NCBI GenBank assembly: GCA_946185805.1
Contig: CAMHKU010000006.1
Coordinates: 1 to 55,943, forward strand
DNA length: 55,943 nt
From: an uncultured Prevotellaceae bacterium
GTDB lineage: Bacteria; Bacteroidota; Bacteroidia; Bacteroidales; Bacteroidaceae
Reading direction: 5' to 3'
Shown here: piece by piece, positions 28,116-45,217 of the stretch
Layout of the letters: each line of letters opens with the position of its first letter
How positions within the stretch are numbered: position 1 is the first letter of the stretch
The notes under the pieces: generated by a model
The model's database searches: none
What the model was told of the DNA's origin: nothing
The model's input: the letters and a program-made list of their open reading frames with translations, nothing else
Translations under genes and position numbers: made by a program

Positions 28116-28305
28116 AGGTGCAAAGGTAGCAATTCTTTTTTGACGAAAAACGAGCCAAGAGTTAAATTACATTAAATAAACCGTATAATTCTGTTAATCG
28201 AGCTGTATTTTAAAAAAAAGTTCCTAAATTTGTAGCACAGTGTCGTAGAACAGACCGATACACCCAGACCTTGGGCAATAAAAACACTAAAATAACAACG
28301 ACTTA

Positions 28306-28881
28306 ATGATACCAAGAAAAAGAATCCTTCTGCTGCTGGCTCCCCTGATGATGGCTTTTACGCCTGCCAGCGCGCAACGTCTGGCCATCAACAATAATCT
28401 GGTGTTCGACTTGGCCGGTGCACTCTCTGCCGGTGTGGAAATACCTCTCTCGGCGAGCACCTCGCTGGAGACCTACGGCAGCCTGCGCCCCTGGAAGCGC
28501 GGAGAGACAAGCGTACATAAGCACTGGCTCGTACAAAGCCAGTTCCGACTGTGGCCCTGCCAGCTGATGAACGGATTCTTCTGGGGACCTTACGTCCACG
28601 GAGGCGAATTCAACATTGGCAACAGCGACCTGTTTTTCGGACTGATTAAGCCCCTTGAGACCCACCGCTACGAAGGGTGGCTCCTGGGCGGCGGAGTGGG
28701 CATCGGCTACGAATATGCGCTGGCCAAGCACTGGAACCTCGGAGCAGAGATTGGCGCGGGCTACACCTACATACGCTATAAGAAGTATGACTGCGAGGTT
28801 TGCGGAACAGAGAAGGGAGCCGAGACTTACAACTATTTCGGAGTCAACCGTCTGGGACTGAGCATCATCTATGTATTCTAA
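28306..28881 (+). CDS. DUF3575 domain-containing protein
   Basis: 191 aa; NNNLVFDLAGALSAGVEIPLSASTSLET and small beta-barrel pattern, next to a DUF3868/fimbrial locus. Confidence 0.8.
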   Translation: MIPRKRILLLLAPLMMAFTPASAQRLAINNNLVFDLAGALSAGVEIPLSASTSLETYGSLRPWKRGETSVHKHWLVQSQFRLWPCQLMNGFFWGPYVHGGEFNIGNSDLFFGLIKPLETHRYEGWLLGGGVGIGYEYALAKHWNLGAEIGAGYTYIRYKKYDCEVCGTEKGAETYNYFGVNRLGLSIIYVF

Positions 28882-28929
28882 GAAAAGTGATAAGCGAGAA
28901 GTGAAAAAGTGACAAGTGAAATACAAAAT

Positions 28930-30426
28930 ATGAAGAAACACATACATCTAAAGACAATACTCCTTACGCCACGCCTGCTGCTGACGATGCTGACGATGAT
29001 TGCCGGCCTGACAGCAACGGCAATGCCGACACTGCACGAAACAGCAATGGCAAGCGCTAACTACGACTACGTGATGAAGGTCAACCGGTCAGCCATGGCC
29101 GTGGTTGACAGCAACGTCGTCGTCTCCATGCAGCTGACGGCACTGCAGGACGTGCCCGCCGGACAGTCGGTCATCTTGCAGCCAGTACTGGAAGACAGTC
29201 TGTCGAAACGCAGGGCAGAGTTCCCCATGATATTCCTCAACAGCCGCAACCAGCAGATATACTTTGAGCGGGCGCTGAAGGACGAGTTCCCCGACGCCCT
29301 GGCCCTGCGCAAGAAGAGCGGCGAAGACCTCTCCATAGACTACCTCCGGTCAGTGAAATGGGAGCCATGGATGAAAGACGGCGTGCTGAAGCTGCTGAAG
29401 CTCAGCTGCGCCTGCCGCGACATGAAGTACCGCGGCGAAGAGCTCATTGCCACCTTCCAGCAGGAGCAGCCGCAGGCGGTCATCAACCTGCTGCCGGTGT
29501 TTCTCATACCGCCGGCCGACAACAGCCAGAAAGTGCGTGAGGAGAAGGGGTCGGCGCTGCTGACCTACGTTGTCAACAAGACCGACATCCGCCCCGACTA
29601 CATGAACAACCCGCAGGAGCTGCAGAAGATTGACAACTCTGTGAGGCTGGTGAAGAGCGACAGCGACGTCACCATCCGCAATATCACCATCGAGGGCTAC
29701 GCCTCGCCGGAAGGGTCGTTTGCCAACAATCTGAAGCTCAGCGAGGGGCGCACGGCCGCCCTCAGACAGTATCTGCAGCGCCTGCGGCAGACCCGCGGCA
29801 TACCCATCGACGCCAACGGGCGCGGAGAGAACTGGGAGGGACTGCTGCAAGCCCTGCGTACGGGCAGCGACATTCCCCAGCGCACGGCACTGCTCGCCAT
29901 AGCCACCGATGGCAGTCTGGCGCCCGACGACAAGGAACGACGCATGCGCAGCGATGCGCCCCAGGGCTACGCCTACGTGCTGAGAAACATCTACCCGGCA
30001 CTGCGATGCACTAACTACACCATATATTATATTGTGCGCCCGTTCACACTCGAAGAGTCGGAGCGCGTGTTCAAGACGCGCCCCGCCAACCTCAACCTCA
30101 ACGAGATTTACCGTCTGGCAGAGAAATATTCTGGCGACGAGAAGCAATATTCCGCCATCATGCGCAAGGCCTCGATGCTCTATCCTGACGACTCTTACAT
30201 CAACCTCACTATGGCCTATCTGGCCATCAAGAAAGGCGACGCTGACGATGCCGAGGAATATCTGAAGAAGGTGAACGACTGCCCGCAAAAAATCATGAAC
30301 CAAGGCCTCGTGGCCTATCTGCGCAACGACCTGACCACCGCCATGCAACTGGTAGAGCAGGCTCGCCGGCAGGGATTGCCCGAAGCCGCTGAGCAGCTGG
30401 AGGAATTTAAGAAAATAAAAAAATAA
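28930..30426 (+). CDS. DUF3868 domain-containing protein with OmpA-like region
   Basis: IEGYASPEGSFANNLKLSEGRTAALRQYLQ (OmpA-like); C-terminal helical repeats; precedes the fimbrillin gene. Confidence 0.75.
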   Translation: MKKHIHLKTILLTPRLLLTMLTMIAGLTATAMPTLHETAMASANYDYVMKVNRSAMAVVDSNVVVSMQLTALQDVPAGQSVILQPVLEDSLSKRRAEFPMIFLNSRNQQIYFERALKDEFPDALALRKKSGEDLSIDYLRSVKWEPWMKDGVLKLLKLSCACRDMKYRGEELIATFQQEQPQAVINLLPVFLIPPADNSQKVREEKGSALLTYVVNKTDIRPDYMNNPQELQKIDNSVRLVKSDSDVTIRNITIEGYASPEGSFANNLKLSEGRTAALRQYLQRLRQTRGIPIDANGRGENWEGLLQALRTGSDIPQRTALLAIATDGSLAPDDKERRMRSDAPQGYAYVLRNIYPALRCTNYTIYYIVRPFTLEESERVFKTRPANLNLNEIYRLAEKYSGDEKQYSAIMRKASMLYPDDSYINLTMAYLAIKKGDADDAEEYLKKVNDCPQKIMNQGLVAYLRNDLTTAMQLVEQARRQGLPEAAEQLEEFKKIKK

Positions 30427-30469: not shown

Positions 30470-31972
30470 ATGTTGAAAGCCACCAAACCCATCTTTGCCC
30501 TGCTACTGGCCACCGCCATGATGTGCGGATGCAGCCAGGAGAGCGACGAGCCTGCTGTCTCTGCCGGCACCCAGGCCATTAACGACGCTGAGGCCACGGT
30601 CGTATTCCGTCTCGCGCCCAACGTCAGCACCATCACCCGCAGTGCCGAGGACAGCTACAACTACGTGCAGGGCACGGCCGACGAATATGCCGTCAACCAG
30701 GCCCGCATCTATCTCTTCGACAGTCCTACAAAGCTCTTTGCAAAGAGTTTCCTGCTGACTAAGCTCACACGCAACGGCACCGATGCCAACGGCAACATCA
30801 TCTATGAGGCTGAGCACGTGGGCGTGACACCAGGCACCTACGACATCTTTGTCACTGCCAACAGCAGCCGCCAGATACAGGCACAGACGGAGGATGAGTT
30901 CCTGGCCGACATCGACGACCAGACCTACGTGCGCGGACTGATAACCGACATCTCGGGCGGCGTGCTCATGTCGAACCGCGCCTCTGACAATACCGGCATC
31001 GTCATAGAGAAAAAGGCCGACAAGAGCGACAACGTTGTCAGCATCACCCTGGAGCGCACACTGGCACGACTCGACATTGCCAAGGGCAGCGACCATTTTG
31101 CACTCACCGACGAAGCCAGCCGCCAGTATGCCACCGTCACGCTCGACGGCTATCACATCGTCAACCTGGCCAAGCGCTGCTACACCTTCCGCCATACGGC
31201 CGTGCTGACAGCCATGGACGAGCCGCAGTGGAGCCTCAACGACAACTTCGGCAATGTGAACGATGTCAACGGCTATGTCGTAGACCCGTACTTCTTCAGC
31301 AAGAAGATTGATGCCGCACAGTTCAGCAACGCCGACAAGTACTACGAGAACTACTATGGCGACATCAGCAACCCCGCGGCCATCACATGGACGGCTTTCA
31401 GCAGCTCGGCATCAACACCGCAATACAAGACCGCCTACTGCCTGGAGAACTGCATGCTCATGCCTGCCCAGAAGAACGGATACTCTACCGGCGTTGTCTT
31501 CCGCGCCAAGCTGGAGCCCTACAACAACGTCTACCGTCTGGCTGCCGACAACACTACGCTGGAACTCGTCGCCGACGCTAAGCAATATCCCGAAGTGCTG
31601 TATTACTACGACTACAAATTCTACACCTCACCAGCGGCACTGGCCGTGGCCGTGGACACGCCGTCGGTATCTGCCGACAACCTGGACATCTACCAGGCAC
31701 GCAAGTATGAAAAGACCGACGACGGCTACCGCTGCTACTACAACTACTGGATACGCCACCAGGACAACCTCAATCCCGCCACGATGGGCGTCATGGAGTT
31801 TGGCGTGGTGCGCAACAACCTCTACCGCATGCTCATCACTAACGTGTCAGACCTGGGCAGTCCGCTGCCCGACGTCAATCCTAACACCCCCGATGAGGGA
31901 GAAACCCACCTGAAGATTGTGCTCAACGTGAAACCATGGATAGTAAGAGACCTTACCAATATCGTGCTCTGA
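30470..31972 (+). CDS. Mfa1-like fimbria major subunit (fimbrillin family) lipoprotein
   Basis: Lipobox MMCGC; VSITLERTLARLDIAKGSD; GVMEFGVVRNNLYRMLITNVSDLG; C-terminal VKPWIVRDLTNIVL. Confidence 0.87.
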   Translation: MLKATKPIFALLLATAMMCGCSQESDEPAVSAGTQAINDAEATVVFRLAPNVSTITRSAEDSYNYVQGTADEYAVNQARIYLFDSPTKLFAKSFLLTKLTRNGTDANGNIIYEAEHVGVTPGTYDIFVTANSSRQIQAQTEDEFLADIDDQTYVRGLITDISGGVLMSNRASDNTGIVIEKKADKSDNVVSITLERTLARLDIAKGSDHFALTDEASRQYATVTLDGYHIVNLAKRCYTFRHTAVLTAMDEPQWSLNDNFGNVNDVNGYVVDPYFFSKKIDAAQFSNADKYYENYYGDISNPAAITWTAFSSSASTPQYKTAYCLENCMLMPAQKNGYSTGVVFRAKLEPYNNVYRLAADNTTLELVADAKQYPEVLYYYDYKFYTSPAALAVAVDTPSVSADNLDIYQARKYEKTDDGYRCYYNYWIRHQDNLNPATMGVMEFGVVRNNLYRMLITNVSDLGSPLPDVNPNTPDEGETHLKIVLNVKPWIVRDLTNIVL

Positions 31973-32934
31973 GGCGTATCGCCACCCTGCTGCTCGTGGC
32001 TCTGACGCTCGCATCGTGCACATGGGTGAAGGATGATACTGAGGAGTGTCGCTACGGCTTCTGGCTGCAGCTGCACTATACGTACAACATCCTGGATGTA
32101 GAGGCGGCGCCGGAATATATCAACGACGCCTTCGTCTACGTCTACGACGCCGACGGCAACTACGTGCGACGTATCGACGTCACCCGGGCACAGCTCACAG
32201 CCAACAACCACCGCGTGCGGGTAGAGGGACTCGACGAGGGAGACTATCAGTTTGTGGTGTGGAGCGGCATCGGCAACAGCCCCTATGCCGTCACCGAAGA
32301 TACCAAGACCATAAGCGACTTCCGCGTGCAGCTCGCTGCCACCGGTAGCACCGCCAGCACACAGTTGCCAGACCTCTATTTCGGCGCCCTGCCTACGGTG
32401 CACTATGACAGCCGCTATGCCGTTTACGACGTCAGCATGATGAAAGACACCAACCAGCTGTCATGCCTCGCCGTATCGCTCGCCGACGACAGTCTCACCC
32501 CCGACAACTGCTCGCTGACGATGACGGCTTCTAACAGCGCCATGGACGCCCGCAACCGGCTCTCGTCACCACTCACGGTAGAGTATACGCCCTTTCAGCA
32601 GAAGGCCGTCACCATTGACGACCCCGACTACGGCGAGCTACACGGCGTGCAGTTCAGCATCAAGACCCTGCGGCTGATGGCCGACAGCGACTGCCGACTG
32701 CTGCTACACAAGAAGGGGCAAGACGAGCCTGTGCTCAACATCTCGCTGCCCGAATACATCGCACTCATAGGGTCGCTATACACCAACCTGGGCCGCGAGG
32801 TAGGACTTCAGGAGTATCTCGACCGCCAGGACTTCTACACCGTCGTGCTGCTCTTCTCCGAGGGCCTCGACCAGCTGCTGCAGCTACGCGTGAACTCATG
32901 GCGCGTCAGGGCTTACAACCACCTAAAGCTTTAG
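31936..32934 (+). CDS. FimB/Mfa2-family fimbrial anchor subunit
   Basis: Signal and lipobox LASCTWV; AFVYVYDADGNYVRRIDVTRAQLTANNHRVRVEGLDEGDYQFVVWSG. Confidence 0.87.
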   Translation: MDSKRPYQYRALRRIATLLLVALTLASCTWVKDDTEECRYGFWLQLHYTYNILDVEAAPEYINDAFVYVYDADGNYVRRIDVTRAQLTANNHRVRVEGLDEGDYQFVVWSGIGNSPYAVTEDTKTISDFRVQLAATGSTASTQLPDLYFGALPTVHYDSRYAVYDVSMMKDTNQLSCLAVSLADDSLTPDNCSLTMTASNSAMDARNRLSSPLTVEYTPFQQKAVTIDDPDYGELHGVQFSIKTLRLMADSDCRLLLHKKGQDEPVLNISLPEYIALIGSLYTNLGREVGLQEYLDRQDFYTVVLLFSEGLDQLLQLRVNSWRVRAYNHLKL

Positions 32935-32943
32935 TATAACGTC

Positions 32944-34854
32944 ATGACACTGAGCAACATATCCCCCACCCTGCTGACCATGAGTCCACGCACCGCCCTG
33001 CTGACCATGCTGACGCTGACCCTGAGCACACTGCTCACCACCTCATGCATTGGCGACGATGCAGAACCGACAGCAGAAGCAGACATCGTCAGGGTGAACG
33101 ACCCGATACCCGATTTCGAACTGCAAGGTGCCGATGGCAGCCGACTGTCATCGACAGCACTGCGGGGGCATGTCGTACTGCTTAACTTCTTCGACACCAC
33201 CTGCCCTGACTGCCGGCAAGAGCTGCCCGTCATCCAGCAGGTCTACAACCGCTATGGCGACGCGGTGACGGTACTCAACGTGCCACGCAGCCAGACGGCC
33301 GGCGAAGTGGAGAAATACTGGCAGCAGGCTAACCTGACAGTACCCTACTACACGCCGACGGAGCCGGGACTGTACTATCGGTTTGCCTCCAGCAGCATAC
33401 CGCGGCTATACATCATCGATGCCAAGGGTACGGTGCGCGCCACATTTGACGACAGTCCGCTGCCAACCCTTGACGCCATTGACGACGTACTGCGGCCGCT
33501 GTTCGCCGAGGACACCGCGCGCCAGCTAGCTACGACCAACGTCACCTTCCGCGTGCGGGTGCCGAAACAGGCTAACGACAATTATTACTTCCACAACGAA
33601 TACACCATCAGCCACCTCGACGCCTACTTCTTCGACACCGACACCAAGCAGATAGCAACCATGGCCAGCGTGGGAGGCCTGACAGAGGCCGACGACGTGT
33701 TCGATACGGAATACGACATCATATACCTCTTCCGCAACATGCGCATCAAGGTGGGCAAGTTCGACATCTTCCTCGTGGCCAACTATCCTCACTTGCTGAA
33801 AGATATCACCAACGAACAGCAACTGCTTGACTTGGTCGACAGTGAGACCTATGCCAACGGCATCGCCGCCAGCCTGCCCTTGGACGGCCCCGTGATGACC
33901 AGCCGCGCCACAGCGCTCTACGCCGTCAACCTGCTGCCATATGTCAATCGCGACTACGTGGTCAACATTGAGGTGGAGCGGGTCATGGCCAAGCTACAGA
34001 TTGGCGTGGCACAGAACAGTTTCCCCCTGACCCACGACGGCAAGACTTATGCTGTGGTGAACATCACCAACTACAAGTTTGTCAATCTCAACACAAGCTA
34101 CTACCTGTTCCAACACCGCGACGAGCTCACCGCCCTGCCCGAGCAACCGCAATTCAAATTCCCCCTCAACTACAGCGACTATAGCGAAAAGGACAATCAG
34201 TATGTCGTCGATCCGCTGTTCTACCAGAAACATCCCACGATGGCGGCACTGACAGCCTACGGCAAGCAGTGCGCCTCATGGTATGGCAATTTCAACGCCA
34301 GCGACTTCGCCGCCATGCCTGCCGCCGGTAACTACGGACTGGCATATATCCTTGAGAACACCGTCTACCGCACCAGCCAGTTCAACGGCTATACGCCGGG
34401 CATTGTCTTCAAGGCATCGGTGAGCCCGTCCTTCGTCTACCTATACAACCGGGCAGAGCATGACCTCAAGGAGGAAAACAGACCGGAATACTGGCCACAG
34501 ACCATCTATCTCTACAAATACAATTTCTACGGCTCGATACAGGCCATCAACTTCGTCGATGACCTTCAGCTTGACGAACTGCAAGACTATACCGATGCCG
34601 AGCTGAGCAAATACGGCATCAAGCAGTGCAGATTCAACATGGGATCCTACGAAACCCACTACACCTACTGGATTCAGCATCGCCCTGCCGACGACCAACC
34701 CATGGGACCGATGCGCTACGGCGTGGTGCGCAACCACTTCTACCGCATGGTCATCAGCAAAATCACCGGCATCGGATACAGCCAAGTCAGCCCAGAGGTG
34801 ATGCGCGAAGACTATCCAAACTCCTTCGCCGACATTGTCGTGGATAAAAACTAA
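32944..34854 (+). CDS. Lipoprotein with N-terminal thioredoxin-like (CPDC) domain fused to an Mfa1-like fimbrillin domain
   Basis: Lipobox TTSC; LLNFFDTTCPDCRQELPVIQQVY...SSIPRLYIIDAKG (TlpA/AhpC-TSA-like), then VMAKLQIGVAQNSF...MRYGVVRNHFYRMVISKITGIG, homologous to the adjacent fimbrillin. Confidence 0.85.
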   Translation: MTLSNISPTLLTMSPRTALLTMLTLTLSTLLTTSCIGDDAEPTAEADIVRVNDPIPDFELQGADGSRLSSTALRGHVVLLNFFDTTCPDCRQELPVIQQVYNRYGDAVTVLNVPRSQTAGEVEKYWQQANLTVPYYTPTEPGLYYRFASSSIPRLYIIDAKGTVRATFDDSPLPTLDAIDDVLRPLFAEDTARQLATTNVTFRVRVPKQANDNYYFHNEYTISHLDAYFFDTDTKQIATMASVGGLTEADDVFDTEYDIIYLFRNMRIKVGKFDIFLVANYPHLLKDITNEQQLLDLVDSETYANGIAASLPLDGPVMTSRATALYAVNLLPYVNRDYVVNIEVERVMAKLQIGVAQNSFPLTHDGKTYAVVNITNYKFVNLNTSYYLFQHRDELTALPEQPQFKFPLNYSDYSEKDNQYVVDPLFYQKHPTMAALTAYGKQCASWYGNFNASDFAAMPAAGNYGLAYILENTVYRTSQFNGYTPGIVFKASVSPSFVYLYNRAEHDLKEENRPEYWPQTIYLYKYNFYGSIQAINFVDDLQLDELQDYTDAELSKYGIKQCRFNMGSYETHYTYWIQHRPADDQPMGPMRYGVVRNHFYRMVISKITGIGYSQVSPEVMREDYPNSFADIVVDKN

Positions 34855-34932: not shown

Positions 34933-35598
34933 ATGAAAATAGGAATTATCGTAGCCATGGACAAGGAGCTGCAACAGTTGCAGACGCTCTTTACCGATGG
35001 CAATGTTGTAGTACAGAAATGCGGCATCGGCAAGGTCAACGCCGCCCTTGGTGCCCAGCGCATGATCAATGAGTTCCACCCCGATGTCATCGTCTCGTCA
35101 GGCTGTGCCGGCGGCAATGGCGACGATGTGGAGATGCAAGACGTCGTCGTCAGCTCACAACTGGCCTATCACGACGTCTATTGCGGCAAGGCCATCGACA
35201 ATATCACCCAGTATGGGCAGGTGCAGGGGCTGCCGCTCTTCTACGAGTCCCCTACATGGCTACTCGACAAGGCCGAGGCATCGTGGCCCCTGGCCGCCGG
35301 TGAGCATCCCAGGCTGCACCGCGGGCTGATAGTCACCGGCGACTGGTTTGTAGACTCCAAGGAGAAGATGCGCGCCATCGTCAGCCACTTTCCCCAGGCC
35401 AAAGCCGTCGACATGGAGTCGTGCGCCATCGCCCAGACGTGCTATATCAATAAGGTGGCGTTCGTATCGTTCCGCGTCGTCAGCGACATCCCTCTGCGCG
35501 ACGACCACGCCTCACAGTATCACAACTTCTGGCAGACCGTGTCTGAACACTCGTTCCTGGTCACCAAGTCCTTCGTAGAAGCCATAATGGCCGGATAA
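34933..35598 (+). CDS. mtnN: 5'-methylthioadenosine/S-adenosylhomocysteine nucleosidase
   Basis: IVAMDKELQQL, CGIGKVNAALGAQ, SSGCAGG, VDMESCAIAQTCYINKVAFVSFRVVSD. Confidence 0.92.
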   Translation: MKIGIIVAMDKELQQLQTLFTDGNVVVQKCGIGKVNAALGAQRMINEFHPDVIVSSGCAGGNGDDVEMQDVVVSSQLAYHDVYCGKAIDNITQYGQVQGLPLFYESPTWLLDKAEASWPLAAGEHPRLHRGLIVTGDWFVDSKEKMRAIVSHFPQAKAVDMESCAIAQTCYINKVAFVSFRVVSDIPLRDDHASQYHNFWQTVSEHSFLVTKSFVEAIMAG

Positions 35599-37387: not shown

Positions 37388-38434
37388 TTACTCTCCCACA
37401 ACGATGACGCAGCGGTTGCGGTCGTTCTCGGTGTAGGGCTGCACGGTGTCGCCGTAGCTGTTAACAGTCATGCGGTTGGCGTCGATGCCCTTGCTCTGCA
37501 GGCTCTTAGCCACCTTCTCGGCACGCTGCTGGGCGTACTTGGCATTAATCTTGGCGTTACCAGTACCCTTGTCGGCATAACCGCTGACGGTAATCTTCTT
37601 GGCGGGGTATTTCTTACACCAGTCAGCAATCTTGTTGAGGATAGTCTCGGGGTCGGGGTCCGACTCACGGATGAGGTAGAAGAATGTCTCCTTCAGCGGC
37701 TCGTCCTTCACTACCACGGGCTCGGGCTTCTTCTCCACCACGGGAGCGGGAGCGGGAGCAGGAGCGGGCTCTACCACAGGAGCAGGCTCGGCAGCAGGTG
37801 CAGGCTTGGCCACCTTCTTGTGGCCGAAGTTGAAGGCCACGCCCAGGAGCGTTGACGAATACCAGTCGTGCTGCTTGTCGCCGTCGATGCGTCCGTTCCA
37901 CTGCGTCGAGGTGTTGGTCATACGATGCTCCAAAGTAAGGCTTACATTCTTGCACAGACGAGCCTCAAGGATAGCGCCCACACGGACGGCGGGAGCAAAC
38001 TTGGTAGAACTGGTGAGTGTAGCCTCCGACCAGGTGTAGCCGGCACCGCCGAGCAGATAGAAGGCCAAAGGCGTGCAGGCCTTCTTGGTGAAGAGGTTCA
38101 CCAGATTGAGCGTAGCGTCGAAACTCACGGCATAATACTTGAACTTATTGTAAGTATCGGCCACGTACTGGTCTTTCACCTTCGAATCCCAGCCCTCGGC
38201 ACCGAGGCGCACACCCACGAGGGGCGTCACCTGGCGGCCGACGTTGAGGCCGAAGACGGGCGATATAAGGTCGCCACGCTTACCGGGAGTATAGGGAATC
38301 TGCACGCCCCCCTGAGCCTGGATATACCAGTAGGGCGAGAAGCAGCAGGCGCCGTTGTTGTCGCAGCTGCCCGTCTGCGCGTTGGCCGTCAGGGCGAAGA
38401 GTGCCGTCAGTGCCAGAAAAATATATTTTTTCAT
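37388..38434 (-). CDS. OmpA family outer membrane protein
   Basis: Signal peptide, barrel, PAPAPAPVVEKKPEP linker, OmpA C-terminal domain ITVSGYADKGTGNAKINAKYAQQRAEKVAKSL. Confidence 0.9.
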   Translation of the reverse strand: MKKYIFLALTALFALTANAQTGSCDNNGACCFSPYWYIQAQGGVQIPYTPGKRGDLISPVFGLNVGRQVTPLVGVRLGAEGWDSKVKDQYVADTYNKFKYYAVSFDATLNLVNLFTKKACTPLAFYLLGGAGYTWSEATLTSSTKFAPAVRVGAILEARLCKNVSLTLEHRMTNTSTQWNGRIDGDKQHDWYSSTLLGVAFNFGHKKVAKPAPAAEPAPVVEPAPAPAPAPVVEKKPEPVVVKDEPLKETFFYLIRESDPDPETILNKIADWCKKYPAKKITVSGYADKGTGNAKINAKYAQQRAEKVAKSLQSKGIDANRMTVNSYGDTVQPYTENDRNRCVIVVGE

Positions 38435-38465: not shown

Positions 38466-41400
38466 TTAGAACGTCAGCTTAGCACTGAGCTGCATGCGCC
38501 AGCGGCTGTAGTAGTCGGCATAAGAACGCATGTCGTAGTCACCTTTCTGCTGGAATGAATACTTACCCTTGCTGATGGTCAGCGGGCTGTAGTAGTTGTA
38601 GCCGCCCTGCGACATGGTGGCACCCCACTTCTTGCTCAGCATGTTGGTGAAGTTGATGATGTCGAAGCCAATCTGCAGATAGCGTATCTCCTTGCCGATC
38701 TTGAAGCCGAACTTGTGGTCGAAGTGCAGGTCGAGGCGGTTCTCCCACTTCTCGTAGTCGCCGTTGCGCTCGCAGAACTCTCCGCGGTGAGCCGAGAGAT
38801 AGTCGTCGCCGGCAATCCACTGCTTGAAGTTGGCCACCTGCTGCTCGGTAGTAAACTTGCTGGTGGCGGCGAAGTGGCCGGCAGCTGCCAGCTGGTCGAT
38901 CTGGGCGTCGGTGGGTATGAACATCAGGTCGTTGTTGACACCGTCGCCGTTCATGTCGCCATAGGTATAGATAGAGAAAGGAGCACCCGAGTTGCCTGTA
39001 TAGATCAGGCCGATGGTGGTCTTGTTGTCAAAGGTGCGACCTGGGTTCTTGTTCCAACTGATGTGCTGGTAGGCCGAAGCCATCACCTGGTGAGGCATGT
39101 CGAAGTTTGAGGTCTCCAGCTCTACGGCGTTAGGATCCTTGTGGGTGTAGTTGTACTGGAAGTTGGAGGCAGCCACCGACGATGAACCGTTGTTCACGGT
39201 CTTTGACTTGCCATAGGTGTAGCTGGCCATCAGGTCGAGGCCGAAGTCGAAGCTCTTCTCAGCCTTCACAGAGATGTTGTAAGAATAGCCCTTCGACACA
39301 TTATCCAAGTAGAGGATGTTGGGTGTGCTCTTCATCGTGGTAAACATTGGGCGATTGTCGAAGTCGAAACCGTTGGTCTCGCCCCAGGTCTTGCCGGTAG
39401 ACTCGATGTTGAGCTTCTTCACGATAATGTCGTTGAGCGTCTTGGAGTAGATACCCTCGACAGTCCACTTGATGCCTGCGGGACCAACAACGTCAACAGC
39501 GAGGTCAGCACGTAGCTGTTGGGCAAACTTAAAGTCTTTGTTGAACACGTTGATGGTCTGTGCAGCAAAGGCGGGAGCACCCTGCGAGGTAGAGGGCACG
39601 TTCTGCATGATGGTCTGCTGATTGAGCAGGAACTGCTTGTCGCCACCCTTGCCCGAGCCGGTGTCGTAATTGAACTGTGCCACACCAGTGTTAGAGAAGT
39701 TGTTGCTAATCCACACGAAGGGTATGCGGCCGGTGAAGATACCCACACCACCGCGGACGACGACGGCATTGTTGCCCAACACATCGTAACGGAAACCTAA
39801 GCGGGGCGACCAGAGGGGCTTGACGGCAAGTTTCTGGTTGGTCTGCACGTCGTAGCCGTGCTGCTGTGCCCAGGTGTTGAAGTCCTTGTTCTCCAGCGGT
39901 GTGTCGAGCATCATGGGCATGTCGATACGCAGGCCGTAGGTCAGCTGGAAGTTATCGGTAACATCCCACTTGTCCTGCACGTAGAAGCCCAGCTGTGCAG
40001 CCTTGAAGGGCGAACTCCAGCGGTCGGTACCGGCCACCGCCTCGATGGCGCGACCCAGGCGGAAGCGTGCAATATTGCCGGCAAGGAAGTCGTCGGGCGA
40101 GTTGAAGTAGTACGAACCATAGAAGTCCTGGCAGAAGAGGTTGCCGAAGCTGTAGAGTTCGTCGTGGGTACCAAAGGTGATGGCGTGGCTGCCGAGGGTC
40201 CATGTCAGATTGTCGGTCAGTGTCCACACGTCTTGATCCAGACCGTTGGCCATCGACGAGCGCTCGTTACCCATGTTGAGGGTACCGCCACCGACATTGC
40301 TCACCGACACCATGGGGAATGCCAGGCCAGGATTGCGCTTGTCGCGGACACTGGTCCAGCTGAGGTGGAACTCGTTGCTCACGTTGTTGCTGAAGCGGCT
40401 CTGCAATTCGAGTACCAGAGAGTTGGCCTTCGACACGAAGTCGTAAGCGTAATCGTTGGTCACCAGCGACGAAGCGCCGGCAGTATTGTTGTTCTTGCGA
40501 GCATCGACGAGGCTCCAGCGCAGCGAGGCGTGGTGGCGGTCGTTGATGTTCCAGTCGAGCTTCAGGCCTACCTTGTCAGAATAGGTGTATTCCTTGGGAG
40601 TACCTAACGAGCCGGTATAGTTGACGCCCTGAGCGGCAGCCTGCTGCTTGAGCGTGCTCAGCAGATTCTCGGCCAGATCCCAGTCAACCTTGGTCTGCGA
40701 GCCCTTGGCGCTGTAGGCATTGTCGTACTCCTTGTTGGTGCGCTCGTAGTTGGCAAAGAAGAAGAGCTTGTCCTTCACAATAGGGCCGCCCAGGGTGGCA
40801 CCCCAAGTGTAGTCGGTCTGTGAGCCATAGTCGTCGGAATCGGTACCGTCGTGCTTCTGATACTTGTTGCCCACCAGGCCGCCATCCTGATAGTAGCCAT
40901 AGACGCTGCCGTGAAAATCGTTGGTTCCCGACTTGGTGATGGCATTGATAGCACCACCGGTGAAACCGCTCTGGCGCACATCGAAGGGGGCAATGCTCAC
41001 CTGCAGTTGCTCGATGGTCTCCATAGAGAAGGCCTGGGTGCCGGCCTGACCGCCGTTGGCACCGTTAGAGGTAAGGCCGAACACGTCGTTGGCCATAGAA
41101 CCGTCAATTTGGATGGAGTTATAGCGGTTGTTGGAGCCGGCAATGCTGATAGCGCCGCTTTCTGAGGTCCTCACAAAGGGGTTGATACGTGCCACGTCAG
41201 CAACACTGTGAGTGATGGAGGGCAGCTCGGCCAGACGGCTGCCACTGATGGTCTCGGCAGCACCGTTGCGCGAAGCGGCCAGACCGGCCTGACCCGTAAT
41301 CGTGATTTCACCTAACTGCTTAGTGTCATCTTCAAGCCATACCTGCAGGCTGTAGGTCTCGCCGAGAGAGAGGTTGATACCCTCGAACGACTTTGTCTGG

Positions 41401-41663
41401 CTGCCTACGTAAGACACGGTCACCGTGTAAGGACCGCCGGCACGCATACCCTGAATAGAGAAGCGACCCTCAACATTGGTAACAGCACCGTAGCGAGTGC
41501 CTGAAGGCTGGTGAACAGCCTGGACGGTGGCACCGATGGCCGTCTCGCCATTGGCAGTGCCAAGGGTCACCTTACCATTGATACCAGAAGTCGTCACTTG
41601 AGCCAGCGCCGTTAACGAAACTGTTAACAGCGTGACCACCAGAAAAAACAATCTTTTCTGCAT
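38466..41663 (-). CDS. TonB-dependent receptor, Oar-like (carboxypeptidase regulatory-like domain)
   Basis: TTSGINGKVTLGTANGETAIGATVQAVHQPSGTRYGAVTNVEGRFSI; PFDVRQSGFTGGAINAITKSGTNDFHGSVYGYYQ. Confidence 0.93.
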   Translation of the reverse strand: MQKRLFFLVVTLLTVSLTALAQVTTSGINGKVTLGTANGETAIGATVQAVHQPSGTRYGAVTNVEGRFSIQGMRAGGPYTVTVSYVGSQTKSFEGINLSLGETYSLQVWLEDDTKQLGEITITGQAGLAASRNGAAETISGSRLAELPSITHSVADVARINPFVRTSESGAISIAGSNNRYNSIQIDGSMANDVFGLTSNGANGGQAGTQAFSMETIEQLQVSIAPFDVRQSGFTGGAINAITKSGTNDFHGSVYGYYQDGGLVGNKYQKHDGTDSDDYGSQTDYTWGATLGGPIVKDKLFFFANYERTNKEYDNAYSAKGSQTKVDWDLAENLLSTLKQQAAAQGVNYTGSLGTPKEYTYSDKVGLKLDWNINDRHHASLRWSLVDARKNNNTAGASSLVTNDYAYDFVSKANSLVLELQSRFSNNVSNEFHLSWTSVRDKRNPGLAFPMVSVSNVGGGTLNMGNERSSMANGLDQDVWTLTDNLTWTLGSHAITFGTHDELYSFGNLFCQDFYGSYYFNSPDDFLAGNIARFRLGRAIEAVAGTDRWSSPFKAAQLGFYVQDKWDVTDNFQLTYGLRIDMPMMLDTPLENKDFNTWAQQHGYDVQTNQKLAVKPLWSPRLGFRYDVLGNNAVVVRGGVGIFTGRIPFVWISNNFSNTGVAQFNYDTGSGKGGDKQFLLNQQTIMQNVPSTSQGAPAFAAQTINVFNKDFKFAQQLRADLAVDVVGPAGIKWTVEGIYSKTLNDIIVKKLNIESTGKTWGETNGFDFDNRPMFTTMKSTPNILYLDNVSKGYSYNISVKAEKSFDFGLDLMASYTYGKSKTVNNGSSSVAASNFQYNYTHKDPNAVELETSNFDMPHQVMASAYQHISWNKNPGRTFDNKTTIGLIYTGNSGAPFSIYTYGDMNGDGVNNDLMFIPTDAQIDQLAAAGHFAATSKFTTEQQVANFKQWIAGDDYLSAHRGEFCERNGDYEKWENRLDLHFDHKFGFKIGKEIRYLQIGFDIINFTNMLSKKWGATMSQGGYNYYSPLTISKGKYSFQQKGDYDMRSYADYYSRWRMQLSAKLTF

Positions 41664-41839
41664 AAATTTTTGTTGTTGTTATTAATTAATTAATACCGGG
41701 CGGAACCGCAGTTCGGCCCTCCTTTTGCTTTGCGGCTGCAAAATTAATAATAATTATCCAAAACGAACTATTTTTTAGCAAATAAATCCAAAAAAATAAA
41801 ATTCCCAACTCTGGAACAGGCTTATAAATGGTTACAAAA

Positions 41840-41876
41840 ACAATAGGTGACAAGTATAAAAGATGTCACCTATTGT
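41840..41876 (-). terminator. Rho-independent terminator downstream of the second TonB receptor
   Basis: ACAATAGGTGACA-AGTATAAAAGA-TGTCACCTATTGT; T-rich tract follows on the minus strand. Confidence 0.8.
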
Positions 41877-41893
41877 TGCCTTTGCTAAGTAAA

Positions 41894-44800
41894 TCAGAAT
41901 ATGTAGCGCAGGCTGAACTGTATGCGGTAGGTAGACTGCATGCCGTTGTAGTCGGCAAAGGTGTCGGCAAGCACCTTGCCGCTCTGCTTGGCAAAGTTGT
42001 AGGTGCCGGTCTTGGCCGTATAGGTCAGCGGCATCATGCTGTTCACCTGCCGGTAGATTCCCCAGTGCTTGCTGATGAGGTTAGGCAGGTTCTCGATGTC
42101 TATGCCCAGTTGGAGGGTGTGGCGTCGGCTGCCTGCTTTGATGTAGAAGTCTTGCATCAGCTTGAAGTCCAGCTGGTGGTGCCATGGCATGAGAGCGCCG
42201 CCGCGCTCGGCATACTCGCCAGTGTGGCTGCTGAGGTAGCTGTCCTGCTGGATGTAAGCCCAGAAGTCGTCGCGCTGCTGGTCGGCGGTATAGGTGCCAT
42301 TAGCCTCTTGGATGTCGGTGAAGTTCCACTCGTCGAGAGCCTGGCGCGAGGCGGGGATATACATCAGGTTGTTAGCCCCACGGTCGCCAACGATGTTGCT
42401 GTTAAGCGTGTAGGAGAAGCGCGAGTAGCGGTAGGAAGAGCCGCCAATGAACCCGCTGTTCATGCCGTCGTAGATCAGGCCTACGGTCGTTGCGAAGTGC
42501 TTGGCATACTCCTTGCGGTAGTTAGCCGAGATCAGCAGGCGGTGGGGCGACACGTAGGTGCCATAGCCCAGTTCCTCGTCGTTGACGGCGTTCACCGAAT
42601 AGCGGTTGGTGCTGTAGGCCGAGGTTACCTGGTCGCCGATGCCGTCGCCATAGCTCTTAGCCTTGGAGTAGGTGTAGCTAGCCTTGACATCGAGGCCGAA
42701 GTCAAACTTCTTGGCCAGCGACGCCGTGATGGAATAATAGAAGGCGTTGCTGCCGCCATTGGTAATGAGGAAGGGGTTCACGCCGCTGTTATAAGTGGTA
42801 TAGAGGTTGCGGGTGTCGCCAGGGGCGAGCGTCACCTTGTTGGCACCGTTGCGGTGGATGTTGACATTGCGGATAACGGCGGGATTGAACTCGCGGCTGT
42901 ACATGCCCTCGAGGGTGAAGTCGATGCCGTAGGGCAGCTTGGCATCCAAGGCCAGCGACGTCTTCCACACAGCGTTCATGCTCAGGTTGCGGTCGATGAT
43001 GGTGGGCTGGGCCGGCGGCGCGGGGTTATAGCCGCCAATCTTACTCATGTCGAGCGTCTGTATCTGCTCAGCCACGCTGGGCGAGAAGGTAGGCACGCCG
43101 GCATAGGCAGGATAATTGCCATTGGGGTCGTTGAGCATATAGCCATACTGCACCTGTCCGCAGTTGGAGTTGCCCACGGCCGAGACAAGCCACACGAAGG
43201 GCAGACGGCCTATGAAGTAGCCGGTGCCGCCACGCAGCACGTAACGCTGGTCGCCAAGGATGTCCCAGTTGAAGCCGATACGGGGACTGACGGTCAGGCT
43301 GCCCTCGGGCAGCTGGTCGGTGCTGTACTTGTTGTTGTCGAACACGAGGTCGGCAAACTGGTGGTTGTAGTTGTTCTCCAGGGCGGGATAGATGGGTTTC
43401 TCCACACGCAGGCCGGCGGTAAGGCGCAGCTGGTCGGAGACGTTAATCTGGTCTTGCACGTAGACGGAGAACAGCTGCGACCTCATTTTAGCCAGGAACT
43501 GCGAGCCGTCGGCATCGGCCGACATGGTGACGAGATAGGCCGAGGGCATGGCACGGTTGACAAAGTCGTCCCAGGAGTTGTAGACAAAGAGGCCGTTACC
43601 GCCCTGCATGAATCCGTTGACGGCCTCGTTGGTCTCAAACTGCAGACCGGCCACGAGCTTATGGACGCCCGTGGTGAACGACAGTTCCTCGGTGCCCACG
43701 AAGGTCTTCACCTGACGCAGGTTGCCGGCGGTAAACAGGTCTGGACCGAAGGCGGCAAAGGCAGCACCGTCTTTCAGTATGTGTGTTGAGGGGAACGTGC
43801 CGCCCTCATAGCTGCGGGGCTCGTCCTGATAGCTGTAGGTGGCGCGCAGGGTGTTGTTCACCCCACCCCACTTGGCATTCCACTCGGCGGCCAGCGACGT
43901 GAAGTTGTAGTCCTGGTTATAGCGCTGGCTCTGGAAGTAGAGGGCGGCGCCGGAGCCGATGTTCATGCTGGAGCGCATACCGGCGGCGGTGTTGCCGGGA
44001 TAGACGATGGAGGCCGACAGGGGGCTGACAGAGGTAGAGGGCGACTTCACTTCCTTCGACTTAGACTTCGAGAAGCGCACGTTTACCTTATTATTATCGT
44101 CGATGTTCCAGTCTAAGCGGGCCAGCACCTTGAAGGCCGGCGACTTGTCGCTGTAGCCCTGATAGGGTCCGGGATTGTAGCCGTAGGTGGTAGCGAGATA
44201 CTGCTGGATGGCGGTCATCTCGGCCACTGTTGGGCGGTGCACCACGTTGTTGGCGGCATCCCAAGGCTGGCTGCCATCGCGGGCCACGGCCGTAGGACCG
44301 GCAGAGACGCGGTCTTCGTACTCGCCGTTGACAAAGAAGAAAAGCTTGTCTTTGACGATAGGCCCGCCGAGGGTGGCGCCATACATCGTGGTGTGGTCCT
44401 GGGTGCGGCTGATCTCGTCGTAGTCGCCCACCTGATTGCCTCGCAGGTGGACATTGGTGGTATACATATAGGCTGAGGCCTTGAACTCATTGGTGCCGCT
44501 CTTGGTAACGGCACTGATGGCGCCTCCGGTAAAACCGCTCTGGCGCACGTCGAAAGGCGACGTGGATACAGAGATCTGCTCCAAGGCGTCGAGAGAGACG
44601 GGCGAGCCGTTGCCAGGCAGGTTGCCGCCGATGCCGAAGGCATTGTTGAAGGCGGCACCGTCGATGGTGACATACGACTGGCGGAAGTTACCGCCACCCA
44701 CGGCAAAGCCGTTGCCGGTATTGGCGCCGGTGGGCGTCATCTTCATGATATCGTTCATGGAGCGGCTGACGGTGGGGATATAGGTCATCTGCTCGGCACC

Positions 44801-45217
44801 TACGCTGGTGACGGCGCCGGCACGGTCGGTACGCATGTTGTTACGCCCGGCGGTAGAAAACACCTGCACCTCCTGCAGCATCTGCGAGTCTTCGCTCAGC
44901 CATACGTCAAGCACTGTGCTCTGACCCAGCGACAACTGGATGTCGGTAAACTTCTTGGGCTGGTAGCCGATATACGACACTTCAACCTCATAGGGGCCGC
45001 CGGCACGCAAATTTTCCAAAGCGTAACGGCCGCTGATATTGGTTACAGCACGATAGACAGCCCCCGAGGGCAGATGGCGGGCGGTAACGGTGGCACCGAT
45101 GACCTCCTCATCGTTGGCCGTCACCTTACCGTTAATACCTGAGGTGGTTACTTGAGCCACGGTTGCCGACACAAGTGTCAACAGCAACGCTACCAATACG
45201 CTTAATCTTTTCTGCAT
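41894..45217 (-). CDS. TonB-dependent receptor, Oar-like, tandem paralogue
   Basis: TTSGINGKVTANDEEVIGATVTARHLPSGAVYRAVTNISGRYALENLRAGGPYEVEVSYIGYQ; PFDVRQSGFTGGAISAVTKSGTNEFKASAYMY. Confidence 0.93.
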   Translation of the reverse strand: MQKRLSVLVALLLTLVSATVAQVTTSGINGKVTANDEEVIGATVTARHLPSGAVYRAVTNISGRYALENLRAGGPYEVEVSYIGYQPKKFTDIQLSLGQSTVLDVWLSEDSQMLQEVQVFSTAGRNNMRTDRAGAVTSVGAEQMTYIPTVSRSMNDIMKMTPTGANTGNGFAVGGGNFRQSYVTIDGAAFNNAFGIGGNLPGNGSPVSLDALEQISVSTSPFDVRQSGFTGGAISAVTKSGTNEFKASAYMYTTNVHLRGNQVGDYDEISRTQDHTTMYGATLGGPIVKDKLFFFVNGEYEDRVSAGPTAVARDGSQPWDAANNVVHRPTVAEMTAIQQYLATTYGYNPGPYQGYSDKSPAFKVLARLDWNIDDNNKVNVRFSKSKSKEVKSPSTSVSPLSASIVYPGNTAAGMRSSMNIGSGAALYFQSQRYNQDYNFTSLAAEWNAKWGGVNNTLRATYSYQDEPRSYEGGTFPSTHILKDGAAFAAFGPDLFTAGNLRQVKTFVGTEELSFTTGVHKLVAGLQFETNEAVNGFMQGGNGLFVYNSWDDFVNRAMPSAYLVTMSADADGSQFLAKMRSQLFSVYVQDQINVSDQLRLTAGLRVEKPIYPALENNYNHQFADLVFDNNKYSTDQLPEGSLTVSPRIGFNWDILGDQRYVLRGGTGYFIGRLPFVWLVSAVGNSNCGQVQYGYMLNDPNGNYPAYAGVPTFSPSVAEQIQTLDMSKIGGYNPAPPAQPTIIDRNLSMNAVWKTSLALDAKLPYGIDFTLEGMYSREFNPAVIRNVNIHRNGANKVTLAPGDTRNLYTTYNSGVNPFLITNGGSNAFYYSITASLAKKFDFGLDVKASYTYSKAKSYGDGIGDQVTSAYSTNRYSVNAVNDEELGYGTYVSPHRLLISANYRKEYAKHFATTVGLIYDGMNSGFIGGSSYRYSRFSYTLNSNIVGDRGANNLMYIPASRQALDEWNFTDIQEANGTYTADQQRDDFWAYIQQDSYLSSHTGEYAERGGALMPWHHQLDFKLMQDFYIKAGSRRHTLQLGIDIENLPNLISKHWGIYRQVNSMMPLTYTAKTGTYNFAKQSGKVLADTFADYNGMQSTYRIQFSLRYIF

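Follow-up and report, generated by a model that had tools for sequence, protein, structure and literature searches.

The last gene of an Mfa-type (type V) pilus operon from an uncultured Prevotellaceae bacterium encodes a lipoprotein in which a ResA/TlpA-like thioredoxin domain, predicted to have an intact active site, is placed between the lipidated N-terminus and a tip-type Mfa-like pilin domain without donor strand. The protein is best called a type V pilin variant, namely a known kind of pilin with an N-terminal thioredoxin. What is new, in the literature searched, is that thioredoxin and pilin are joined covalently and through the operon, each component being already known. As in the preliminary description of this DNA, whose author knew of no fimbrillin of this architecture, no description of a thioredoxin-pilin fusion was found in the searched literature, most subscription papers lying outside the reach of the search. 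In the reading preferred here, to which a probability of roughly 45% is given, the thioredoxin is a membrane-anchored oxidoreductase that acts during assembly and is then clipped off, leaving the bare tip pilin to cap the pilus; we infer the redox activity, the clients, the cleavage and the order of events. The window, i.e., the whole stretch of DNA that was analysed, comprises 55,943 nucleotides and its relevant features are collected in Table 1.

Table 1. Features of the pilus operon and of the fusion protein in the window.
Feature	Position	Strand	Evidence
DUF3575 outer-membrane barrel-like protein, first operon gene	28306..28881	+	Pfam DUF3575 179.5 bits; synteny
DUF3868/OmpA-like protein, conserved second operon gene; in-frame alternative start downstream	28909..30426	+	profile, synteny
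Mfa1-type stalk subunit, TR|SAEDSY processing motif and C-terminal donor strand	30470..31972	+	NF038041 224 bits; motifs
Mfa2-type anchor subunit; 37-base overlap with mfa1	31936..32934	+	Pfam Mfa2 158.9 bits
Thioredoxin-pilin fusion lipoprotein, 636 aa	32944..34854	+	intact ORF; Pfam, NCBIfam, AlphaFold, Foldseek
Signal peptide and lipobox (TTSC, lipidated Cys35), then acidic CIGDDAE	32980..33048	+	translation; homologues
ResA/TlpA-like thioredoxin domain, residues ~50-175; C87PDC90 at 33202-33213; cis-Pro154	33091..33468	+	profiles, model, motif conservation
Type V pilin (fimbrillin) domain, residues 196-636; strand A1 = 197-207; no C-terminal donor strand	33529..34851	+	profiles, alignment, model
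PNP_UDP_1 phosphorylase-superfamily protein, next gene after the fusion	34933-35598		Pfam

The Operon and the Fusion Gene

The genes are arranged in the order DUF3575-DUF3868-mfa1-mfa2-fusion, all on the plus strand and separated by overlaps or short gaps. The fusion gene is the fifth and last of the operon, in line with the earlier placement at the end of an Mfa-type locus. The operon probably ends there, because the gene that follows codes for a phosphorylase-superfamily protein. A Bacteroides-type -7 element, TAAATTTG, is found near 28225, upstream of the DUF3575 gene, and the full promoter pattern has no exact match at this place. In the fused loci of other genomes with readable context, the fusion occupies the same slot of the same operon. 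The window genome also contains two Peptidase_C11 (clostripain-family) protease genes.

The fusion gene is a single open reading frame of 636 codons from ATG to stop. The reading frame and its translation agree with the uninterrupted ORF and the lipobox at C35 described before. The true start may instead be ATG 32980 (M13), from which the signal peptide would have the usual length that the homologues show. The column of the lipid Cys is occupied in all 21 aligned fused homologues, and the acidic stretch which follows Cys35 resembles the acidic export signals of surface lipoproteins (PMC6222051).

The Thioredoxin Domain

Residues 51-173 match the Pfam families AhpC-TSA (53.3 bits), Redoxin (48.8) and Thioredoxin_8 (40.8), all above the cut-offs. 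A search of solved structures with the N-terminal part leads to ResA/TlpA-type proteins and, in the Foldseek comparison of the AlphaFold model with ResA, the TM-score on target is about 0.87. The fold, the CxxC motif and the predicted cis-Pro (P154, within SSIPRLYIID) place the domain in the thioredoxin-like superfamily; the ResA model NF002854 scores 62.8 bits, against a curated cut-off of 170. The thioredoxin-like domain, its CPDC motif and its cis-Pro had been recognized in the preliminary description with correct residues and coordinates, and Pfam, AlphaFold and Foldseek agree with it.

The C-x-D-C motif and the cis-Pro are retained in 21/21 aligned fused homologues, the motif being mostly CPDC and otherwise CKDC, CLDC, CSDC, CRDC or CGDC. 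The dN/dS of this part is 0.11-0.23, from few close pairs. The domain is under purifying selection, and its redox site is kept as expected of an enzyme.

The domain shares with the ResA/TlpA family the thioredoxin fold, the CxxC motif, the cis-Pro and an N-terminal membrane tether. It differs in the CxDC (mostly CPDC) form of the motif, in its fusion to a pilin and in being encoded in a pilus operon and not with cytochrome c maturation genes. The CPDC motif is common, in the aligned segment, to SdbA of Streptococcus gordonii (5um7), a thiol-disulfide oxidoreductase that makes disulfides in secreted proteins and affects the biofilm (PMC5112981). SdbA, however, is a stand-alone protein of a Gram-positive bacterium, lacks a pilin domain and is about 24% identical to the window domain in the Foldseek alignment.

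The Pilin Domain

The NCBIfam model NF038041 (Mfa1 family major subunit) matches residues 194-613 with an E of 6.5e-35 and 121.3 bits, narrowly missing the cut-off of 130 bits, and Pfam Fimbrillin_C is over its cut-off on residues 571-626 (39.1 bits). The homology to the adjacent Mfa1-like subunit, already noted in the preliminary description, extends to 30% identity across 441 aa (E 2e-49). The AlphaFold model, built with 48 sequences (window and locus sequences), has a mean pLDDT of 87.9 and supersedes a first run with 10 sequences in which the pilin was poorly modelled (pLDDT 51). Foldseek relates this model to the type V pilins 4jrf (E 1.4e-16), Porphyromonas gingivalis Mfa1 5nf3 (E 3.3e-15), 5nf2 and the FimA prepilin 6jzk. 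The structure prediction hence supports both the thioredoxin and the pilin folds.

The two-domain fold, the lipoprotein signal peptide and the co-encoded stalk (Mfa1) and anchor (Mfa2) subunits are common to the window protein and the type V pilins (Mfa1/FimA superfamily; PF15495 Fimbrillin_C, PF06321, NF038041). Unlike these, the window protein carries a thioredoxin between the lipobox and strand A1, has no C-terminal donor strand and belongs to a group in which the Arg site is not conserved. The C-terminal donor strand characterizes the stalk class: the LKVVLNVKPWIVRDLTNIVL-type tail is conserved at the end of the Mfa1 rows and absent from every tip-type pilin aligned. Since the donor strand of Mfa1 is missing, the pilin of the fusion is probably a tip-type subunit, able to receive a strand and unable to provide one; a position at the pilus tip was among the options of the earlier note. 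The tip accessory subunits of P. gingivalis (Mfa3-5 and FimC-E) are likewise minor subunits whose genes accompany those of the stalk and the anchor, and Mfa5 has an extra von Willebrand A domain (PMC5954841); a thioredoxin, in contrast to the window protein, is not described in any of them.

The Arg of the motif between strands A1 and A2 (TR|SAEDSY in most) is present in every Mfa1 row examined. It is found in about half of the tip-type pilin rows and is thus not conserved there; the loop of the window's own pilin has only a Lys, located after the strand. For this reason, the processing of the fusion subunit is not predictable from its sequence. The dN/dS of the pilin part is 0.10-0.17 (few close pairs), which points to a strongly constrained domain.

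Distribution of the Fusion

The pilin domain was found in 17 of the 398 genomes of the genus sample, fused in 13 (ORF of about 600-640 aa) and unfused in four (453-520 aa). The 31 named loci include 23 fused, 7 unfused and 1 frameshift-split case. In the latter (L083 7452-9129, identical to the G510:C40 locus) two overlapping frames of 334 and 343 aa share the fusion between them; this may be a frameshift, a pseudogene or an assembly error. The named hits are all from uncultured genomes labelled Prevotella, Prevotellaceae, Bacteroidaceae or Bacteroidales, with ruminants (goat, sheep, buffalo, red deer and yak) in many of the record titles.

In the family-wide sample, orthologues of the pilin domain are present in a few further genera; the Bacteroides-type matches in this sample correspond to Mfa1 itself. 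In the order-wide sample of 393 genomes the pilin family was found only in the window's own genome, and no relative of the fusion pilin occurs as a third pilin after mfa2 in the Bacteroides-type DUF3575-DUF3868-mfa1-mfa2 loci. The family is narrow, and the fusion seems to be confined to ruminant-gut Prevotella and near relatives in Bacteroidaceae. Four loci from other genera of the family (L112, L113, L114 and L115) have two tandem DUF3575/DUF3868 pairs ahead of mfa1-mfa2.

Separate, Fused and Lost Thioredoxins

In the genome G411 (L106) the operon reads DUF3575-DUF3868-mfa1-mfa2-thioredoxin (172 aa)-pilin (494 aa), the last two genes overlapping by 14 bases and each having its own lipobox. 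The enzyme therefore belongs to the operon without having to be part of the pilin. In the pilin-domain tree the G411 pilin is placed, on a long branch, as sister to the 28 fused and unfused rows, and the fusion is confined to one clade. The unfused rows are scattered amid the fused ones, with six changes to the unfused state, at least three of them imposed by branches with good support; L065, the closest relative of the window's pilin, is itself unfused. The thioredoxin was apparently lost, and the pilin kept, in at least three lineages. Recombination with unfused alleles could also produce such a scattered pattern. When L088 is aligned with L069, the gap excises the thioredoxin and the signal peptide and lipobox remain. 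G014 (L044/L068) is a doubtful unfused case, with Mfa1/Mfa2 not nearby and a signal peptide that is not clear.

The thioredoxin tree is weakly resolved, and G087/G129 are separated in it from the rest of the fused rows. This poor resolution allows for either one fusion event or two, and a single origin of all the fused thioredoxins with the G411 gene is a further possibility.

Proposed Role of the Thioredoxin

Type V pili are described as assembling via lipoprotein sorting and a surface protease. In their pilins the side N-terminal to strand A1 is cleaved off in assembly, which opens the groove. As a lipoprotein, the fusion would be delivered to the outer membrane, where its thioredoxin, positioned close to the membrane, would reduce, oxidise or isomerise cysteines of the incoming pilus subunits. 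Subsequently, the removal of strand A1 would open the assembly groove and leave the thioredoxin on the membrane, and the bare pilin would then cap the growing pilus. Because the thioredoxin precedes A1, this cleavage would also split the two domains. A membrane-side role at the time of assembly is favoured over display at the pilus tip mainly because the activating cleavage would separate the enzyme from the pilin.

The clipped model is backed by both folds, the conserved catalytic residues, the operon slot, the missing donor strand, the separate genes of G411, the thioredoxin neighbour of the G193 pilus locus, the relatives devoid of thioredoxin and the two clostripain-family genes of the genome. 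On the other hand, the A1-A2 Arg is not conserved in the tip-type pilins, which is its weak point. A pilus-tip or assembly-linked oxidoreductase had been suggested in the preliminary description. The assembly-linked part of this suggestion fits better, whereas the tip-displayed part is disfavoured by the location of the thioredoxin N-terminal to A1, by the thioredoxin-loss lineages and by the two-gene relative. A structural role in the mature tip is also less likely, since the thioredoxin was lost in lineages that keep the pilin and is encoded by a separate gene in a relative.

The candidate clients would be Cys328 of Mfa1, the YCLENC and GYRCYY cysteines, or the pilin's own Cys562. Cys328 (LENC) is invariant, and the YCLENC and GYRCYY cysteines are found in 14/18 and 16/18 rows, respectively. 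Cys562 is present in 18/21 fused rows and in 6/8 unfused ones, a group that here includes the separate pilin of G411. Loci that lack the thioredoxin conserve the Mfa1 cysteines just as well, so these do not need it; the Mfa1 and pilin cysteines are candidate clients only, as they are also present where the thioredoxin is absent. The idea that extra cysteines of Mfa1 or of the pilin track the thioredoxin was likewise not supported, and no electron partner was identified.

More tentatively, the thioredoxin might be a single-use redox chaperone within the pro-segment, released at maturation of the tip pilin and coupling pilus initiation to a thiol-disulfide step. If so, we know of no earlier example of an enzymatic pro-domain in a type V pilus. 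Through a thioredoxin encoded in the pilus operon, as part of it or as a neighbour gene, type V pilus assembly would gain a redox catalyst, and the cysteine chemistry of this process in Bacteroidales would become directly testable. The natural series of separate gene, fusion and loss in one group provides matched material on the purpose of the enzyme. The recurrence of the fusion is a hint that pili in this group may be built with a dedicated redox step.

The fusion might instead be built in uncleaved, or be cut N-terminal to the thioredoxin, and act at the distal tip on thiols of neighbours, host or diet. The tip-type pilin without donor strand, the conserved catalytic motif and the lack of a conserved processing Arg between the two domains are consistent with such an enzyme. 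It is nevertheless unlikely, as A1 lies C-terminal to the thioredoxin and, if retained, keeps the groove filled under the known mechanism; moreover, the extra domains of known tip pilins sit C-terminally (PMC12632263), and the thioredoxin was lost in several lineages.

No better odds are given to a non-polymerising outer-membrane lipoprotein, i.e., a pilin-like accessory at the pilus base that would function as a redox sensor, a terminator or a client-holding chaperone. It is supported by the lack of a donor strand in every aligned homologue, by the lack of a conserved Arg and by the acidic residues after the lipid Cys, which resemble a surface-export signal. However, the strong constraint on the pilin domain (dN/dS about 0.10-0.17) and its retention when the thioredoxin is lost speak against this role, and a full two-domain pilin would be needless for a pure sensor.

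A general extracellular lipoprotein for thiol or oxidative stress, with the pilin gene borrowed for expression and export, is more doubtful still. Its models would be Etrx1/Etrx2 of Streptococcus pneumoniae, lipid-anchored surface proteins with a thioredoxin fold (PMC3914529); both are among the Foldseek matches, and in the same genus related thioredoxin lipoproteins are encoded on their own in unrelated contexts. The redox partner of Etrx1/Etrx2 is, however, methionine sulfoxide reductase, which is not encoded in the operon, and they have no pilus link, while the separate copy in the pilus operon of G411 and the copy beside a pilus locus in G193 point to one here.

Finally, an assembly artefact or a chance read-through of two genes, the former considered in the preliminary description, is rejected despite the draft state of the window genome (74% complete, 150 contigs): the fusion is real because it is shared by more than 20 related bacteria of the ruminant gut. 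It stands in independent genomes of many species, among them G1146 and G1083, rated 99-100% complete.

Other Thioredoxin Lipoproteins and Neighbouring Genes

In G193 (L051 393-5705) a thioredoxin gene lies directly ahead of DUF3575-DUF3868 and of a 661-aa Fimbrillin_C protein, forming another pilus locus with a thioredoxin neighbour. The stand-alone thioredoxin lipoprotein of G187 (L049 788-1351) is nested in the fused clade with weak support, and was perhaps split off from a fusion. Small thioredoxin lipoproteins (162-171 aa), which share 32-37% identity with the domain of the window protein, are encoded in G179, G067, G169, G148 and G035 (L052, L053, L054, L056 and L057). They adjoin, mostly directly downstream, genes for giant proteins of about 1500-2800 aa, a second association of thioredoxin lipoproteins with apparent large surface proteins. 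In G074 (L050 6842-7357) the gene of a thioredoxin lipoprotein precedes those of a DUF6057 protein and of a PD40 beta-propeller lipoprotein, and the gene order of this cassette is conserved in G081 (L058 8214-8744).

Further along the window, the minus strand encodes at 38466-45217 two adjoining large outer-membrane proteins of 1065 and 1107 aa, the longer one with CarboxypepD_reg and OMP beta-barrel domains. An OmpA-like protein is encoded beside this pair, at 37388-38434.
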